From positions 1 through 35,984 of the IMG/VR virus record IMGVR_UViG_3300030012_003327: 35,984 nt of DNA, one strand, 5' to 3'. Numbering within the stretch: position 1 is the stretch's first letter; each line of letters starts with the position of its first letter. This DNA comes from a virus. A model generated the notes under the pieces. The model did not search any database, was not told where the DNA came from, and was given only the letters and a program-made list of their open reading frames with translations. This document shows, in pieces, positions 59 to 32,261 of this stretch. Both the position numbers and the translations under genes were made by a program.

Positions 59-1264
59 TTATCTAAATGTAAAGTTTATGCCTACTGAAGAATTATAAAT
101 TTCAGAGTCCCAAAATTTAGTATATTCTGCTTCAGCAAATATTCCTATTGTTTTGCTTAATTTCCAGCCAAATATTACGCCTGCCTGGTAATCATCCCAC
201 TGCTGTAATTCTGAATCTTCTCTTAATCCACCTTTACCCCAGTTATTTCTATTAAGGTAACTTACATTTACATCGCCTTGTACGTATTCGTGGAAAGGCA
301 AAATGTAATTACCATAAGCGTGTAACCAAAAATTCTTTCTATAATGATAAAAATCAAATCCAACTACAGGCGCTACTTCTCCAAAAGCATCTATTAAAGA
401 CCATTGCTCTTGATTATATAAATTCATTAAACCACCGAATATACTATTACGAAAGTCTAAATCGCTATATGCAACTATTTGATCATTAGAATTTTTCCAT
501 ATCCAGTCATACATTACTTCACCTGTTGCAACATCTGTATATGTTGTATAATGATCGCTATATCCATATACATATCCAAGACTATACCATGGATTAGCAG
601 GATATTCTATAACCTCACCTGTTTGAGGATTAGTCCATTCTTCAATTTCATTTAACCATATTTCAATTGGATTATAACCATATGGTTGTTCATGTGTACG
701 GTATATTGCTCCCGCAGATATACTAAATTTTTTTCCTATAGGTAATCTTGCTCTTACTTCAGCTGATTGATATTTAAAATTAACATTACCTTCTTCTCTT
801 TGTTCTAATTTAACAATATGATACTTACCAACATGTCTTATAAAGAATCTAGAATTAAAAAACTCTTCACCTCGTTCTCTTTCTTTTTCATAATGAAATA
901 AATATTCAAGGCCTTTTACTGATGATGTAGGCGCTGATAATGATTTATTATTTTCAGTACCGTCGTAATAATCTTTAGCTTTTACTTCATAACCAAATCT
1001 AGCTAATTTTCTAAATCCTAAACCAACTCTGTAATCCATTGGGTAATAGTTAGTTACATCAATAACCCTAGGTATACTATATAAATCACCATCTGCTGGT
1101 CTTTCTACAAAGTAATCTTTGTATGTTTGTTCGTACGCATTTGAAGCATCACCTGCTACATAAAACGTACCATATTTTAAAAAGTCTTTATAAAGTTCTT
1201 TTAAAAACTGTGCATTTGAATTAAATGAAATTAATAAACAAAGTACTAATAATAGTTTTTTCAT
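59..1264 (-). CDS. Secreted outer-membrane beta-barrel-like protein (phage-encoded)
   Basis: 401 aa. The N-terminus is a clear Sec signal peptide: MKKLLLVLCLLISFNSNAQ, about 19 residues, ending in the NAQ pattern common in Bacteroidota. The rest is rich in aromatic and alternating polar/hydrophobic segments typical of amphipathic beta strands, with GLGFRKLARFGYEVK near residues 80-95. The protein ends GINFTFR, close to the C-terminal aromatic signature of barrels. No enzymatic motif is seen. I recall similar proteins in uncultured marine phage genomes, always of unknown role. The gene sits one base after the thioredoxin-like gene and before a paralogue of the small membrane protein, as one operon. 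It may alter the host outer membrane late in infection (superinfection exclusion, receptor masking, lysis) or be a virion component; the signal peptide favours the first. Confidence 0.8.
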   Translation of the reverse strand: MKKLLLVLCLLISFNSNAQFLKELYKDFLKYGTFYVAGDASNAYEQTYKDYFVERPADGDLYSIPRVIDVTNYYPMDYRVGLGFRKLARFGYEVKAKDYYDGTENNKSLSAPTSSVKGLEYLFHYEKERERGEEFFNSRFFIRHVGKYHIVKLEQREEGNVNFKYQSAEVRARLPIGKKFSISAGAIYRTHEQPYGYNPIEIWLNEIEEWTNPQTGEVIEYPANPWYSLGYVYGYSDHYTTYTDVATGEVMYDWIWKNSNDQIVAYSDLDFRNSIFGGLMNLYNQEQWSLIDAFGEVAPVVGFDFYHYRKNFWLHAYGNYILPFHEYVQGDVNVSYLNRNNWGKGGLREDSELQQWDDYQAGVIFGWKLSKTIGIFAEAEYTKFWDSEIYNSSVGINFTFR

Positions 1265-1265
1265 G

Positions 1266-1601
1266 TTAAAATGTGTTTTCTAAAATTTCGTCAATAGCGT
1301 TTTCTATTTTATCTACAGTATTTTCAGGCAGCTTTAACGTAACACCTGATTCAATTTTTAATATTTGCTCACCGTTATGAAATAATATAACTGTTGGTAT
1401 ATATATTATTTCTTCAGTCGCAAAATGATCACCATGCTTACTTAAATAAAATAAATGAGTATTATGATCACTAAATTTTTTTAATGATATTTCATTTTCT
1501 TGTACAAATTCAGCACTAAACTGTACAATTGATATTCCATCTTTATATTGAGAATAACTTGATACAGTAAATAATAATAATAATAATTTTAAATATTTCA
1601 T
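1266..1601 (-). CDS. Exported thioredoxin-fold protein lacking the CXXC active site
   Basis: 111 aa. MKYLKLLLLLFTVSSYSQ is a signal peptide of Bacteroidota type ending in YSQ. The mature part follows the thioredoxin layout: a first strand (ISIVQFSAEF, about residues 24-33), then after a helix the cis-proline strand YIPTVILFHNGEQI at about 67-80, then a glycine and a final helix. The position where WCGPC belongs reads SAEFVQEN, so there is no cysteine pair and it cannot act as a normal dithiol oxidoreductase. Thioredoxin-like proteins of this type are, as I recall, frequent in marine Bacteroidota phages. The ATG overlaps the preceding stop by one base (TAATG), which suggests translational coupling. 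A binding or chaperone role in the periplasm is possible but not shown. Confidence 0.75.
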   Translation of the reverse strand: MKYLKLLLLLFTVSSYSQYKDGISIVQFSAEFVQENEISLKKFSDHNTHLFYLSKHGDHFATEEIIYIPTVILFHNGEQILKIESGVTLKLPENTVDKIENAIDEILENTF

Positions 1602-26801: not shown

Positions 26802-27692
26802 TTATTTTTTATCTTCTATAAACCAATTTTTATAGACTTCTCTTTTTTTACATATGTATTCTATATACATATCAACTTTCTTTTTCCAATCTTTATCTAC
26901 CTCTGGATTTATAATACCAGATTTATAGTTAGAAAAAGTTTTATTAATATACTTTTTAGCGTCTGATTGATTTGCTAATAAGTGATTATTAATACAATAA
27001 AAAGAACCTCTTTGTATATTGTTCCATACATCTATAGGTTCTGTTACTTTGCCAGTAACTACGCCATATATACAACTTTCGCTGATATGTGTCGTATAAA
27101 TACCTTTTGCTTTTTGCAAATAGTAATACATGTTTATGTCTCTAGGTAATATATTTTCTTCACCAAAAAAATCTTTTAACTCACCAATTATTTGATGTGT
27201 TGTTATTGGATGTGGTTTAAAATAAATATTATCACCATGCAATCTTTTAATATACTTTAATCTATTCAAGCATACGTTTTCACGAACTTTATTAGACCCA
27301 GGTAATACAACTAAATAATCCTTAGGCGGATATTTGTCATACACCTGCTTCCTTTCTGTATATTTATTAGCTTTATCATCTACAATTCTATTTATAAGCC
27401 AAGAAGAATAATCAACAATTTCATCGCCACTTGAAGCAGCAGCATCTATCATTTGTTCATTTCTTAGTTTATAATTTAAAGGTTGAAGATAAAAGCATCC
27501 CGCATATTCTGTATATGCTAATGTTTTGAAATAAGGCATTTCTTCTGCCATAACATCATAGCTATGTTCTAAGCCATGTTCTCCACATTTTCTTATTACA
27601 TAACCCTCGACTGCTTCTAGGTTATATAAACCTTTAGATTTTTTTAACGGACCTATACGTTTATTTAGCTCCGTTTCATTAAACATTTCCAT
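26802..27692 (-). CDS. Predicted GT-B-type glycosyltransferase-like protein
   Basis: 296 aa, no signal peptide, so cytoplasmic. The C-terminal half has a Rossmann-type strand with a loop (DYLVVLPGSNK, about residues 125-135) and then IYFKPHPITTH (156-166), a K-P-H-P motif. In capsule, CDP-glycerol and sialyl/polysialyl-type transferases this pattern sits at the nucleotide-sugar site. A later segment, AKGIYTTHISESCIYGVVTG (195-214), resembles the 'secondary nucleotide-binding' turn with Ser-Glu-Ser. The GT assignment rests on these motifs only. It follows the Thr/Ser-rich 509-aa fibre by 52 bases and precedes a run of small genes. If active it could glycosylate the adjacent Thr/Ser-rich fibres, but the donor and target are unknown. 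Confidence 0.5.
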   Translation of the reverse strand: MEMFNETELNKRIGPLKKSKGLYNLEAVEGYVIRKCGEHGLEHSYDVMAEEMPYFKTLAYTEYAGCFYLQPLNYKLRNEQMIDAAASSGDEIVDYSSWLINRIVDDKANKYTERKQVYDKYPPKDYLVVLPGSNKVRENVCLNRLKYIKRLHGDNIYFKPHPITTHQIIGELKDFFGEENILPRDINMYYYLQKAKGIYTTHISESCIYGVVTGKVTEPIDVWNNIQRGSFYCINNHLLANQSDAKKYINKTFSNYKSGIINPEVDKDWKKKVDMYIEYICKKREVYKNWFIEDKK

Positions 27693-27744
27693 AAAATTAA
27701 ATTTAAATTTGTATAATATATTAATTACATGCTTTTATTCAATA

Positions 27745-29274
27745 CTAACTTCTCGGATGATGCACCGTACTTCCTGGCTGCCCAGCTACTGTCGAAGGAC
27801 TATACCAAGTTGTTTGCGTTTGCACTGTTGTATTAAAAGAAGTTGTATAAACTGTAGTTGTATTAAACGTCGTAGTAGTCGATTTAGAAGTTTCATAAAC
27901 TGTCGTTGTAGTTGTGCTTGTATTATAAGCAGTTACAGTTGACGTTGATGTATTGTATTGCGTAGTTGTTGACTGCGACGTATTATAAACTGTCGTTGTT
28001 GTAGTACTAGTATTAAACGTTGTTGTTGTTGATTTTGATGTTGAAAACGTTGTGGTAGTACTTCTTGTTGTTGCAAAAGTTGTGGTAGTACTTCTACTTG
28101 TACTTACAGTTGTATTAAAAGTTGTAGTAGTACTTTTACTTGTATTAAATGTTGTAGTAGTACTTTTACTTGTTTCATATGTTGTAGACGTACTTATACT
28201 TGTTGGCACAGTAGTACCAAAACTTGTAGTAGTATCTCTAGTCGTATTAAAAGTCGTGGTTGTTGACCTTGTTGTTTCATATGCTGTAGTTGTGGTAAAT
28301 ACTGTTACGGTACTTGTATTAAACACTGTAGTAGTTGATGTACTTGTATTAAATGTTGTTGAAGTAGTATATATAGTTTCAGTAGTTCTTTGTTCTATTG
28401 TATTTTTACTAGTTTCAAAAGTAGTTGTTGTACTTTTAGATGTTACCCTGCTGGTGTTAAAAGTTGTTGTTGTAGAAGTACTTGTATTAAATACAGTTGT
28501 AGTGGCATACGTTGTATTAAATGTTGTTGTAGTGCTTTTTGATGTTACAGTGCTGGTGTTAAACGTAGTTGACGTTGTATATGTTGTTGTTGTACTTCTT
28601 TGTTCTTCCGTTGTCCTACTTGTGTTATAAACTGTAGTAGTTGAAAATACAGTTACAGTACTAGTATTAAAAGTGGTAACTGTGCTTGTACTAGTGTTAA
28701 ATACAGTTGATGTTGTATATACCGTAGTTGTTGTTCTTGTATGAGTTGTATTTCTAGAAGTAGCAAATGTGGTAGTAGTACTTTTACTTGTTGTTCTACT
28801 TGTGTTAAATGTTGTAGTTCTACTAGTTGCAAATGTTGTAGTATATACGGTTGTAGTAGAATTTGTAGTATTAAAAGAGGTTGTTGTACTTCTTGTTGTT
28901 GCTGTACTTTTAGATGTTACTCTACTAGTATTAAAATATGTCGTATATTCTGTAGTTTTACTTGTAGCAAATGTTGTTGTAGTTGCTGTACTAGTATTAA
29001 AAGTAGTTGTAGTGTTCCTAGATGTTGTAGTATTTCTACTTTCTTCAGTTGTTTTAGATGTATTATAAGTTGTAGTGGTATTATAAACGGTAGTTGTTGA
29101 TCTACTTTCACCTGTTGTTTTACTTGTATTATATGTAGTAGTAGTATTATATGCCGTTGTTGTACTACGGCTCTCACCAGTAGACTTAGATGTATTAAAA
29201 GTCGTAGTAGTGTTATAGCTGGTAATTGTAGCATATACCGTAGTTGTTGACGTACTTCTACTAGTGTTTGGCAT
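27745..29274 (-). CDS. Thr/Ser-rich decapeptide-repeat fibre-like protein (no chaperone domain)
   Basis: 509 aa, of which about 480 are tandem repeats of the type S-T-T-T-T-F-N-T-S-K. Every tenth residue is usually Phe or Tyr, followed by N-T-S/T and then Lys/Arg/Thr. Some units carry a 6-residue insertion (16-residue spacing) or a 6-residue half unit. Cysteine and tryptophan are absent from the repeat. The C-terminal ~25 residues are different (TQTTWYSPSTVAGQPGSTVH), a possible tip or attachment. The composition, an elongated beta-type shaft, and the neighbours argue for a tail appendage or adhesin. There is no S74 domain, so it may depend on the 662-aa partner or another chaperone. It begins one base after the methyltransferase-fold gene and shares a 24-residue identical block with the 662-aa protein. 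Confidence 0.75.
   Translation of the reverse strand: MPNTSRSTSTTTVYATITSYNTTTTFNTSKSTGESRSTTTAYNTTTTYNTSKTTGESRSTTTVYNTTTTYNTSKTTEESRNTTTSRNTTTTFNTSTATTTTFATSKTTEYTTYFNTSRVTSKSTATTRSTTTSFNTTNSTTTVYTTTFATSRTTTFNTSRTTSKSTTTTFATSRNTTHTRTTTTVYTTSTVFNTSTSTVTTFNTSTVTVFSTTTVYNTSRTTEEQRSTTTTYTTSTTFNTSTVTSKSTTTTFNTTYATTTVFNTSTSTTTTFNTSRVTSKSTTTTFETSKNTIEQRTTETIYTTSTTFNTSTSTTTVFNTSTVTVFTTTTAYETTRSTTTTFNTTRDTTTSFGTTVPTSISTSTTYETSKSTTTTFNTSKSTTTTFNTTVSTSRSTTTTFATTRSTTTTFSTSKSTTTTFNTSTTTTTVYNTSQSTTTQYNTSTSTVTAYNTSTTTTTVYETSKSTTTTFNTTTVYTTSFNTTVQTQTTWYSPSTVAGQPGSTVHHPRS
27835..29268 (-). repeat. 30-bp (10-residue) in-frame repeat tract, 509-aa fibre
   Basis: The tract runs over almost the whole gene, with a 30-base period. 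Clear adjacent units are 28121-28150, 28151-28180 and 28181-28210; the first two are identical over their first 23 bases. Other units have drifted widely by synonymous change. The plus strand appears as G/T-rich, C/A-poor DNA, and this makes long but meaningless open frames on the other strand and in other phases. Confidence 0.9.
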
Positions 29275-29275
29275 T

Positions 29276-29839
29276 TTAATTTATTGTTTCACCTGTTATA
29301 GGTATTATTATTTTACCACCATTTTTTAAATGGCTATTATAATTATTAACTAAATTTGTTTTATTATCTTGTGTTATGTCATCTGTTTCTGCCCATAAGT
29401 CACATATAATTATATCGTATGTTTTGGAAGGCTGATAGTTCCAAGGATTGTGATTTATAATATTTATATTATTGTCTATCCATGTTACATAACTAATAAG
29501 CTCATCATTACCTTCAATCACATCAAGCGAACTAACTGATTTATTTTTATATATATAATCTGGCACTACACCTATGTGTAATCCTAAATACAATATATCT
29601 CCCCAAGTAGCATTATCATATTGAGCTTTAGTTAACTCCCATCCGCATGTATCGCAGTCACCTACAAATATTTCTGCTTCTTTTGTATGATTATACTTTA
29701 AAAATATAGGATCATTTTTTTTAGAATAAGCAGCCATTGTATAACTTTCTGTAGCACTACTTTGTTTAGTTACTCTCTGAACAATAAAATTTGTAGCGTC
29801 TTTATCAGGTATTAATTCTTCGTTAAAATAAACTCCCAT
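29276..29839 (-). CDS. SAM-methyltransferase-fold protein between the two repeat fibres
   Basis: 187 aa. The C-terminal 110 residues read like the core of a Rossmann methyltransferase: a glycine-containing first strand/loop GDILYLGLHIGVVPDYI (80-96), an acidic end of strand two SLDVIEGND (104-112), and a fourth strand YDIIICDLW (141-149), followed by a helix and LKNGGKIIIP (171-180). Spacing resembles spermidine-synthase-type folds, but the C-terminal catalytic half is missing and the glycine motif is degenerate, so activity is uncertain. The N-terminal 75 residues (NFIVQRVTKQSSATESYT) look different and may be structural. It lies one base from each fibre gene, so a role in fibre modification or assembly is a natural inference. 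It could be a non-catalytic virion domain. Confidence 0.55.
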   Translation of the reverse strand: MGVYFNEELIPDKDATNFIVQRVTKQSSATESYTMAAYSKKNDPIFLKYNHTKEAEIFVGDCDTCGWELTKAQYDNATWGDILYLGLHIGVVPDYIYKNKSVSSLDVIEGNDELISYVTWIDNNINIINHNPWNYQPSKTYDIIICDLWAETDDITQDNKTNLVNNYNSHLKNGGKIIIPITGETIN

Positions 29840-29840
29840 A

Positions 29841-31829
29841 TTATATTTTTTTAAATTCTACATCTATTTCTTTCATACTATAATCAACCCATTTATAACC
29901 ATTTCTTTCAATAACAGCACCATCTATATGTTCAATTTCATCTGCCATAACACCTTGATATACTCCTTTACCATATTTTTCATCTATAAATTCAAACAAG
30001 TATATATTTATACCATTAATTGATTTACCATATTGTCTAATATTTTTCTTAAGTCTTCTATCTGAAAATCCGCCTGAACATCCAGAAACGGTAGCAACAT
30101 AACCAGTACTACTTGTAATTCTAAACTTAGTATCTGGTGCAAATCCAGATGCACTTGTTGCTCCATACCAACCATCAGAAAGTGGGAAACTCGTATTGTT
30201 TATTGCATATACATTTGAACCAGCTTGTGGCACACCTCCTGATACATTTGTTCCATAATATGTATTTGCAATAAATTCAAAACAAACAAAACTTTCACTA
30301 GAACTGCTTGTAGAACTAAATGCTGTTAACGAAGCAGCTGTTGAATATACTGTTGTTGTATTTGTACTTTTGCTTGTATTTGTTGATCTACTTGTGCCCG
30401 TGCTTCTGCTTGTATTATATGTGGTAGTTGTATTGTAAGCTGTTGTTGTACTTCTGCTTTCACCTGTACTTTTACTAGTAGCATAAGTTGTTTGTGTAAT
30501 ATAAACTGTTGTTGTACTTCTGCTTTCCGAAGTACCTTTACTTGTATTATACGTTGTTGTTGTATTATAAATTGTTCCTGTAGGGAACGAAGTAGAAGTA
30601 GTTCTGTTCGTACCATAAGTCGTTGTAGTTGATCTACTAGTATTAAATGTGGTTGTTCTACTAGTCACTCTACTCGTACCAAATGTAGTCGTATATTCTG
30701 TTGTTGTATTATAAGTGGTTGTTGTACTTTTACTAGTTCCAAACGTAGTTGTAGTAGACTTACTTGTAGTAGTTGATGTATTATAAGTTGTCGTTCTACT
30801 AGTTGGGAAAGTAGTTGTATATGTTGTTGTTGTTGCCGTACTGGTATTAAAAGTTGTAGTAACAACATAAGCTGTTGTTGTGTTTCTACTTTCAGTTGTA
30901 TTTTTACTAGTTGAAAATGTTGTTGTTGTAGACCTTGTGGTTGAAATGGTTGTAGTCCTACTAGTAGTAGTAGACTTACTAGTTTCATATGTTGTCGTTG
31001 TATTATAAACAGTTGTTGTACTTCTAGACTCAGTTGTATTCCTTGACGTTGCAAAAGTTGTCGTATAAGCTGTAGTTGTAGACCTAGATGTACTTCTAGT
31101 TTCCTGTGTTGATCTACTGGTGCTAAATGTTGTTGTTGTACTTCTTGAAGTACTAAATGTTGTTGTATACTCAGTTGTAGTTGTTGTGCTAGTATTAAAT
31201 GTAGTACTTGTAGTATACGTGGTTGTTGTATTTCTTGTTTCAGTAGTATTCCTGCTTGTAGCAAACGTAGTCGTGGTACTTCTTGACGTTGATATTGTAG
31301 TGGTTCTACTAGTTGACGTAGTTGTACTTGTATTAAATGTGGTAGTAGTAGATTTAGACGTAGAAAACGTAGTCGTAGTAGTCTTAGATGTTGCGGTAGA
31401 AGTATTAAAAACAGTTATCGTACTAGTACTAGTATTATATACTGTAGTTGTAGATTTACTTGTTGAAAATGTAGTAGTAGTAGATCTAGTAGTTGCAGTA
31501 CTAGTGTTATAAACTGTTACTGTTGCAGTACTTGTATTGAAAGTTGTTGTTGTACTTTGAGAAGTATTAAAGGTAGTAGTTGTACTTCTTGTTGTATTAA
31601 AGGTAGTGGTTGTACTTTTTGAAGTTTCAAAAGTTGTAGTAGTGGATTTACTAGTTGCAAATGTTGTGGTAGTAGATCTGCTAGTTGCGAAAGTAGTTGT
31701 AGTTGATTTAGAAGTTTCGTAAACAGTACTAGTTGATTTAGATGTACTTGTTGATTTACTTGTACTTCTGCTTGTTCCCCTGGTTGTTGCCGTATTCCAA
31801 AAATCTATTCTGTTCCAGAGCCACCTCAT
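29841..31829 (-). CDS. Thr/Ser-rich decapeptide-repeat tail fibre with C-terminal Peptidase_S74 chaperone
   Basis: 662 aa. After MRWLWNRIDFWNTATT come about 490 residues of decapeptide repeats (STTTTFNTSK type) like those in the 509-aa protein. A globular region follows (about 510-588; FVCFEFIANTYYG, then SNVYAINNTSFPLSDGWYGA). Then comes an S74 domain starting at S589: SDRRLKKNIRQYG, with EFIDEKYGKGVYQGVMADEI. In endosialidase-type S74 chaperones a Ser (first residue of the S-D-x-x-x-K pattern) and a Lys five residues on make the autocleavage dyad; here they are S589 and K594. The expected released peptide is 74 residues. These domains force fibre trimerisation and then remove themselves. 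The gene lies 12 bases after the 123-aa gene and one base before the methyltransferase-fold gene, and is a likely receptor-binding appendage. Confidence 0.85.
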   Translation of the reverse strand: MRWLWNRIDFWNTATTRGTSRSTSKSTSTSKSTSTVYETSKSTTTTFATSRSTTTTFATSKSTTTTFETSKSTTTTFNTTRSTTTTFNTSQSTTTTFNTSTATVTVYNTSTATTRSTTTTFSTSKSTTTVYNTSTSTITVFNTSTATSKTTTTTFSTSKSTTTTFNTSTTTSTSRTTTISTSRSTTTTFATSRNTTETRNTTTTYTTSTTFNTSTTTTTEYTTTFSTSRSTTTTFSTSRSTQETRSTSRSTTTAYTTTFATSRNTTESRSTTTVYNTTTTYETSKSTTTSRTTTISTTRSTTTTFSTSKNTTESRNTTTAYVVTTTFNTSTATTTTYTTTFPTSRTTTYNTSTTTSKSTTTTFGTSKSTTTTYNTTTEYTTTFGTSRVTSRTTTFNTSRSTTTTYGTNRTTSTSFPTGTIYNTTTTYNTSKGTSESRSTTTVYITQTTYATSKSTGESRSTTTAYNTTTTYNTSRSTGTSRSTNTSKSTNTTTVYSTAASLTAFSSTSSSSESFVCFEFIANTYYGTNVSGGVPQAGSNVYAINNTSFPLSDGWYGATSASGFAPDTKFRITSSTGYVATVSGCSGGFSDRRLKKNIRQYGKSINGINIYLFEFIDEKYGKGVYQGVMADEIEHIDGAVIERNGYKWVDYSMKEIDVEFKKI
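30066..30340 (-). other. Globular region before the S74 cleavage site
   Basis: This stretch encodes the roughly 90 residues just before the predicted S74 autocleavage site (between residues 588 and 589; codon 589 occupies 30065-30063). Unlike the shaft it has cysteines, aromatics and glycines (NVSGGVPQAGS, YVATVSGCSGGF), the appearance of a folded tip. If the chaperone is removed as in other S74 fibres, this part becomes the distal end of the mature fibre and the best candidate for host recognition. Confidence 0.55.
30340..31800 (-). repeat. 30-bp (10-residue) in-frame repeat tract, 662-aa fibre
   Basis: It has the same decapeptide type as the 509-aa gene and the same G/T-rich appearance on the plus strand. 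It includes units with insertions E-S-R or E-T-R (16-residue spacing) near 30420-30540 and 30870-31100. Units are separated by no spacers, so this is not a CRISPR-type array; it is coding and keeps frame throughout. Confidence 0.9.
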
Positions 31830-31841
31830 TCTGACTAAATT

Positions 31842-32213
31842 TTATTGAGGATAACTACCAAAGTCTCCTACATAATTAATTAATACAATACTTGAAGATA
31901 CTATTAAGTAAGATAAAACAGCTTGTTTATTAGCAGTTGTATCGAAAGATATTGTTCCTCCTCCCGGTGTATAAGATGTTGCAGGTAATGCAGCCCATCC
32001 TAATGAACCAACACTAGCAGGATTAGTTATAAGTATATTACCAGATTTACCCTGTAAATCATTTGATAAATTACTAAATGCAATAGTGTTAGTAGCATTA
32101 TTAGCAGTTATCTTATAATTATTTCCTGGTTTAGAAAAATCTACCGTATGTGTATTACTTGAAGCAGTAATATCTACAAAAGGTTGTTCTATGCTTAAAG
32201 AAAACAATGCCAT
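31842..32213 (-). CDS. Small tail-fibre-domain protein
   Basis: 123 aa from the ATG at 32213. A longer in-frame start at 32252 falls in the hairpin and adds a 13-residue basic/aromatic leader (MRKHRQYLFKYIY), so it is rejected. The product starts MALFSLSIEQPFVDITASSN and has a beta-rich pattern with TNTIAFSNLSNDLQGKSGN. It ends with a hydrophobic strand, ISFDTTANKQAVLSYLIVSS. The strand-turn pattern with Asn/Gly turns and the 'FSNL...G' motif recall small tail-fibre domains in marine phages. It lies between the 610-aa fibre and the 662-aa fibre, 12 bases before the latter. It is a likely fibre-associated protein or tip; no catalytic residues are seen. Confidence 0.65.
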   Translation of the reverse strand: MALFSLSIEQPFVDITASSNTHTVDFSKPGNNYKITANNATNTIAFSNLSNDLQGKSGNILITNPASVGSLGWAALPATSYTPGGGTISFDTTANKQAVLSYLIVSSSIVLINYVGDFGSYPQ

Positions 32214-32230
32214 ATAAATATATTTAAATA

Positions 32231-32261
32231 AATACTGACGGTGCTTTCGCACCGCCGTATT
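32231..32261 (-). terminator. Hairpin with GAAA tetraloop after the 610-aa fibre gene
   Basis: It lies in the 58-base gap. Minus-strand RNA has a 6-bp CGGUGC/GCACCG stem (32249-32254 with 32239-32244) closed by a GAAA (GNRA) loop, extended by an outer AAUAC/GUAUU pairing. The stable loop type exists only in the minus-strand RNA. The following U-richness is weak (UAUUUAUUU), so it may be a partial terminator that lowers expression of the fibres downstream relative to the 610-aa fibre. Confidence 0.65.

Follow-up and report, generated by a model that had tools for sequence, protein, structure and literature searches.

A phage gene cassette pairing threonine-rich repeat fibres with a predicted CMP-sugar glycosyltransferase

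Some mycobacteriophages glycosylate their own capsids or tails, and the glycosyltransferases (GTs) that they encode are believed to act on the virion itself. The glycosylation proteins of these phages are unrelated to the GT described here, and to our knowledge their system contains neither a Thr-rich repeat fibre nor a CMP-sugar enzyme. A literature search brought up no paper that describes GTs paired with Thr-rich fibres in phages. Serine-rich repeat adhesins are glycosylated in the cytoplasm (PMC6291802, PMC7948813). Sialyltransferases and Kdo transferases have the CMP-binding motif (K/R)XHP in common, and QXXXD is the motif that carries the nucleophile (PMC12887879), and in KpsC the pair Lys133-Tyr134 surrounds the Kdo tail (PMC10148158).

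The locus studied here lies in an IMG/VR record that is 35,984 bases long and is referred to, as a whole, as the window. Judged by its large terminase (61% to MW202828, 45% to Flavobacterium elemo phages), the window phage belongs with podovirus-like phages of Flavobacteriia. Four genes on the minus strand follow one another in the order TR1, 187-aa protein, TR2 and 296-aa protein, separated by 1, 1 and 52 bases. An earlier note, made from sequence alone, had described two Thr/Ser-rich repeat proteins with enzyme neighbours at this spacing, and its coordinates and gaps held up. The features are as follows, in the order in which they are read.

32237..32256, minus strand: strong terminator-like hairpin ahead of the cassette leader gene (consensus scan only)
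31842..32252, minus strand: small fibre-associated gene before TR1, listed as 136 aa (ORF list, homologues)
29841..31829, minus strand: TR1, a 662-aa Thr/Ser-rich repeat fibre protein (ORF, composition)
29925..30065, minus strand: residues 589-635 of TR1, a Peptidase_S74 domain of the endosialidase-chaperone type (PF13884, 23.6 bits, cut-off 22)
29276..29839, minus strand: 187-aa class I SAM-dependent protein of methyltransferase/spermidine-synthase fold (AlphaFold model, profile comparisons)
27745..29274, minus strand: TR2, a 509-aa Thr-rich repeat protein with no S74 domain (ORF, composition)
26802..27692, minus strand: 296-aa predicted GT-B glycosyltransferase of CMP-sugar ((K/R)XHP) type, PHROG 26179 (fold, motifs)
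27360..27365, minus strand: GT residues K110-Y111, which align to the KpsC KY pair that binds the Kdo tail (alignment; PMC10148158)
27207..27218, minus strand: KPHP in the GT, its (K/R)XHP motif for CMP binding, with K159, H161 and P162 (43-sequence alignment; definition in PMC12887879)

Homologues of the small fibre-associated gene also precede TR1 in related loci, and in the window a later ATG at 32213 is its more likely start. A consensus scan for terminator-like sites between the four genes found none on the coding strand, save one weak match inside TR1. At one end of the window (59-1264 and 1266-1601, minus strand) lie ORFs of 401 aa and 111 aa with signal-peptide-like starts, the former possibly an outer-membrane barrel.

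The S74 domain at its C-terminus marks TR1 as a trimer-type fibre or spike; Pfam found no such domain in TR2. TR1 is thus a Thr/Ser repeat protein as first described, although not throughout, residues 589-635 being Peptidase_S74. Thr and Ser make up 37% and 17% of TR1 and 47% and 15% of TR2, and Thr occupies position -2 of 100% of TR2 aromatics and position +2 of 94%. Within the repeat segments, spacings between large residues (aromatic or charged) were even in 90% of cases in TR1 and 85% in TR2, compared to 56% in shuffled sequences, well beyond chance (z 6.1 for TR1 and 5.4 for TR2), and were mostly 4, 6 or 10. The same parity was found in unrelated lineages (KVP40 96%, L144 91%, L152 89% and L202 85%). 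The Thr-rich proteins of Caulobacter phages are too small or irregular for parity to show in this test; Thr recurs with period 4 in BL199 and Lullwater, and Cr30 has no clear period. The STTTTFNTSK repeat picked out at the outset is the commonest form of a looser grammar, T-x-[F/Y/W/R/K]-x-T in 4-, 6- and 10-residue steps. With this alternation and little Gly or Pro, the repeats look like a long beta strand of the kind expected of an intertwined fibre shaft. The description 'mucin-like' in the earlier note fits the Thr/Ser richness but not the beta-strand-like alternation, the mostly even spacing of large residues or the Gly+Pro content of ~1-2% of the repeats. A proline-rich, disordered mucin (PTS) domain was rejected on this composition.

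To characterize the 296-aa protein, we used an AlphaFold model built from a 43-sequence alignment, with homologues at 16-79% identity (pLDDT 91.9, pTM 0.88). The best match in the PDB by Foldseek was KpsC. In a second fold comparison the top 15 entries were all Kdo transferases (KpsC, WbbB and KrkA; Z 10.6 to 7.9), including KpsC 6mgb (Z 10.6 over 218 residues), WbbB 5fa1 (Z 9.8) and KrkA 9yfx (Z 8.1), compared to Z 7.1 and below for other GT-B enzymes. The predicted structure therefore has a GT-B fold closest to KpsC and WbbB, in keeping with the initial description of this protein as glycosyltransferase-like. Conservation falls on the expected motifs: K159, H161 and P162 are each invariant in 43/43 sequences, as is K110-Y111, S204 and E205 of the Ser/Thr phosphate-binding loop are each present in 42/43, and Y45-D46 of the N-domain is all but invariant. 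Aligned by hhalign with a bacterial KpsC from a genome (P = 4.9e-6 over 124 columns), the GT profile matches its KY to that of KpsC and its KPHP to KTHP/KPHP. Controls with shuffled columns scored much lower. A sequence-only search against the PDB gave chance matches only, and Pfam gave no match on the window GT; the assignment needed the fold comparison and the profile alignment. The fold, KxHP and the Ser/Thr loop are those of the CMP-sugar GT-B group of sialyl- and Kdo-transferases, a grouping also supported by weak Pfam matches to Capsule_synth and polysialyltransferase, and on sequence and model the 296-aa protein has the look of a GT that uses CMP-sugars.

The QXXXD nucleophile motif is missing from the GT, where the position reads LPG[ST]N with no Q and no conserved Asp, and the GT therefore falls outside the definition of GT99, GT107 and GT140. 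For the same reason its reaction cannot be the one described for KpsC, and we dropped a KpsC-like double displacement. An inverting reaction appears more likely from the sequence. D46 lies 86-87 residues ahead of the QXXXD position, like Glu102 in KrkA, and is suggested by this spacing alone as a candidate general base. The loss of the nucleophile could also be read differently, as the mark of a chaperone devoted to assembling the repeat fibre, one that kept an old enzyme fold and lost sugar transfer, and the strict pairing with fibres (below) resembles that of tail-fibre chaperones. Nonetheless, homologues as distant as 16% identity keep the CMP-binding KxHP, KY and S-E residues and the YD of the N-domain with no or almost no variation, a KdsA gene adjoins the GT in one lineage and sialyltransferases function without a QXXXD nucleophile, and we regard a chaperone as improbable.

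The link between GT and repeat was approached from both sides. Among 80 viral loci retrieved via the GT, nearly all with enough sequence have the order TR1, methyltransferase slot, TR2 and GT. Over all viral loci found through the GT, each of the 55 non-redundant ones with 400 bp or more of upstream sequence has a Thr-rich protein there (54 scored automatically, and L030, with a cut repeat, scored by reading). The reverse search used the back-translated TTTTFNT motif and not the GT. Among the matches listed, the GT came next in 51 of the 52 loci with a Thr-rich ORF and at least 700 bp downstream (within 3 kb in 49, overlapping in two, absent in L204), compared to 1 of the 41 listed control loci in which the motif fell outside such an ORF. 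The two sets share a few contigs, and both are large samples rather than a census. Repeat fibres thus rarely occur without the GT, and of the co-occurrences that the earlier note had proposed to look for in other phage genomes, that with the GT was found. L204:1-5181 encodes a very long Thr-rich protein (cut, 1726 aa) adjoined by baseplate-like genes, with the GT absent from the available stretch.

Cultured phages with GT relatives include Caulobacter Autographiviridae (BL199 and Lullwater), Cr30, Vibrio KVP40-like phages and Stenotrophomonas DLP6, and in 7 of 8 cultured-phage regions a Thr-rich protein lies beside the GT relative. Distant homologues (~20-28% identity) in Caulobacter phages BL199, Lullwater and Cr30 and Vibrio phages KVP40 and F86 have short Thr-rich neighbours; next to the DLP6 homologue a Thr-rich protein is absent. 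A tblastn search of cultured phages with TR2 found nothing, as expected from the low-complexity filter, and a scan of viral contigs with the Caulobacter GT found no relatives. The GT profile matched 1 of 296 genomes of the phylum, on a contig with the same phage cassette, in a pattern-based scan too insensitive to call the GT phage-only. One contig filed in a Flavobacteriales MAG, TMED123 (L142, NHFY01000092.1), bears the cassette and probably represents phage DNA that was binned into the MAG. In KVP40, the Thr-rich protein is KVP40.0254 (L136:4830-5423), whose homologues are labelled 'cell wall mannoprotein' in several Vibrio phages and whose N-terminal domain (~80 aa) is common to tail-region proteins that have no Thr repeat in phages of Stenotrophomonas, Xanthomonas and Ochrobactrum.

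Because the genome settings differ widely, inheritance of a single block cannot fully account for this linkage. That a predicted GT dedicated to the fibre adjoins the fibre gene is strongly supported by the sequences and models. Linkage in the genome is not proof that the neighbour is the substrate, and two other readings bear on this point. The GT might glycosylate another virion or host protein, with the Thr-rich protein a mere neighbour or scaffold; KVP40 has a 72-aa gene between the Thr-rich gene and the GT, and some lineages have further GT-like genes (GT4-type in L152). We judge this very improbable, as the Thr-rich protein is the sole constant partner over the sampled lineages and is rich in hydroxyls, as an O-acceptor would be. 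The GT and accessory genes might instead change host surface glycans (LPS or capsule), for example as a superinfection block, with host-range selection on late genes accounting for the fibre adjacency. Phage-borne LPS genes including KdsA were earlier interpreted in this way (PMC5332604), and the fold relatives KpsC and WbbB make surface polysaccharides. Against this, the GT tracks the Thr-rich protein in nearly every locus, across lineages with otherwise different neighbourhoods, and in MW202828, the nearest relative sequenced in full, this part of the genome encodes a 648-aa protein that lacks the repeat, and no GT match was obtained; we consider an effect on host glycans unlikely. The predicted GT, in our assessment, probably glycosylates the repeat protein.

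Genes that follow the GT offer a hint as to the sugar. In three loci of one marine lineage with a contractile-tail sheath gene nearby (L202, L220 and L239), a gene for KdsA-type protein (Kdo-8-phosphate synthase) begins ~10 bases after the GT. The L202 protein matched the TIGR01362 equivalog with 387 bits (cut-off 314), and the post-GT genes of L220 and L239 have sequence of the same KdsA type. These phage KdsA proteins (L202:6245-7651, L220:5802-7196, and L239 on the reverse strand) carry an extra ~200 aa at the C-terminus. After KdsA come cupin and other genes, including a GT29-like one in L220 (PF00777, 20.0 bits, just under cut-off). KdsA directly after the GT favours Kdo as the donor, for the window by analogy only, and KdsA is confined to this one lineage, which has other sugar genes too. 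Gram-negative bacteria make Kdo, and all named hosts are Gram-negative and thus Kdo makers. We put the chances about even that the donor is Kdo or a close CMP-ulosonate; if it is Kdo, the window phage would have to draw on host CMP-Kdo. In other lineages, proteins of 250-350 aa are encoded right after the GT (L144:6410-7378, L146:11045-12088, L148:6504-7256 and L137:2696-3448); a family search with those of L144 and L148 gave no match, and they could be further modifying enzymes.

The 187-aa protein between the fibre genes had been described as having a methyltransferase fold, and its predicted structure (pLDDT 94) is indeed a Rossmann-type class I SAM-dependent fold. The model is closest to spermidine/spermine synthases (3gjy, Z 12.2 over 163 residues), followed by guanidinoacetate methyltransferase (GAMT; 1xcj, Z 11.8), and many class I enzymes score near these two. 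Its profile matches solved methyltransferases (3.6e-4). No Pfam family passes cut-off for the window protein, and a homologue, L061, passes PF05175 MTS (23.6 bits, cut-off 23). The glycine motif reads GLHIG in the window protein and GLGLG in some relatives. Aminopropyl transfer, as in spermidine synthase, appears equally compatible with the modelled fold.

A SAM enzyme, of either the 187-aa or the GAMT-like type, lies just upstream of TR2 in 34/34 non-redundant flavophage loci with a complete TR2. L072, L080 and L120 hold both types, and in L207 a UbiG-like enzyme sits at another place in the cassette. The exchange of one SAM enzyme for another suggests that the reaction is of more importance than the particular protein. 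Outside the flavophage lineage the GT-repeat pair occurs without a SAM enzyme, and a search of cultured phages with the 187-aa protein found nothing. The methyltransferase is therefore a constant part of the cassette in flavophages but is not tied to it elsewhere. We rate it slightly below an even chance that the SAM enzyme acts on the fibre or its glycan. In several loci (L070:4744-5796, L058:4512-5561, L081:2572-3672 and L084) the GAMT-like methyltransferase is fused to a C-terminal Hint/intein-like domain (PF14890 at 0.005 in L070, below cut-off). A Hint-like end is also found on the Thr-rich protein in L152 and on the ORF ahead of the GT in DLP6.

Taken as a whole, the cassette likely builds a sugar-coated tail fibre by means of the predicted CMP-ulosonic-sugar GT acting on the Thr/Ser repeats. 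The analysis shows the gene order, the repeat grammar, the two predicted folds, the CMP-sugar motifs and the tie of GT to repeat in several lineages; we infer the acceptor, the sugar and its linkage, what the SAM enzyme does and what the phage gains. TR1 and TR2 would form long trimer-type fibres with shafts of repeated T-x-[F/Y/W/R/K]-x-T strand. The GT-B enzyme would use a host-supplied, CMP-activated ulosonic sugar of eight or nine carbons, with CMP-Kdo the most plausible one, and would move it onto Thr/Ser hydroxyls of the repeats ahead of assembly. In flavophages, the SAM enzyme encoded between the fibre genes may add a modification, perhaps O-methylation of the sugar or fibre. The original proposal that the enzymes decorate the fibres is thus partly supported: linkage and fold back a GT made for the fibre and encoded beside it, which would then probably act on it, and for the methyltransferase the tie extends to flavophages only. 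More speculatively, and in our view somewhat doubtfully, shafts densely O-linked by a dedicated CMP-sugar transferase with Kdo, which the host carries in its outer membrane, could be a widespread strategy, with phage-made Kdo in some lineages and SAM-dependent capping in flavophages.

If this is true, the virion surface would resemble LPS, and we know of no description of a protein-linked Kdo glycan of such a kind. If the glycosylation reading is right, some phages would set their own fibre chemistry by means of an LPS-type sugar, with consequences for adsorption and host range and for the stability and recognition of virions. The proposal also offers a function open to testing for PHROG 26179 (KVP40.0256 and relatives), a family listed as unknown, and for the Thr-rich proteins labelled 'cell wall mannoprotein' by annotation pipelines. 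The GT-repeat pair is present in cultured phages KVP40, Lullwater and Cr30.

Finally, we compared the cassette to known systems. The phage GT resembles the retaining beta-Kdo transferases KpsC (GT107), WbbB (GT99) and KrkA (GT140) in its predicted GT-B fold (Z 8-10.6) and in its KxHP, its KY pair and the position of the N-domain acidic residue. It differs from them in the missing QXXXD nucleophile and in being a single 296-aa module, and it is paired with a fibre, whereas these enzymes go with glycolipid or O-antigen. The autotransporter heptosyltransferases TibC and Aah, with TibA and AIDA-I, likewise combine a dedicated GT with a repeat adhesin and use an LPS-precursor sugar, as proposed for the phage GT (PMC4358343). 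TibC and Aah use an ADP-heptose donor and form an iron-finger dodecamer, while the phage GT sides with CMP-sugar enzymes; there is no invariant Cys among the 43 GT sequences and hence no four-Cys iron finger of the BAHT type. Serine-rich repeat adhesins with GtfA/GtfB also have a Ser/Thr repeat adhesin and GT genes in one locus (PMC6291802, PMC7948813), but these adhesins sit in the cell wall of Gram-positive bacteria and involve accessory Sec and transfer of GlcNAc, compared to a phage fibre and Gram-negative hosts here. By analogy, the overall plan of the cassette resembles that of bacterial loci that join an adhesin to a dedicated GT, with a different apparent enzyme class and a phage setting.
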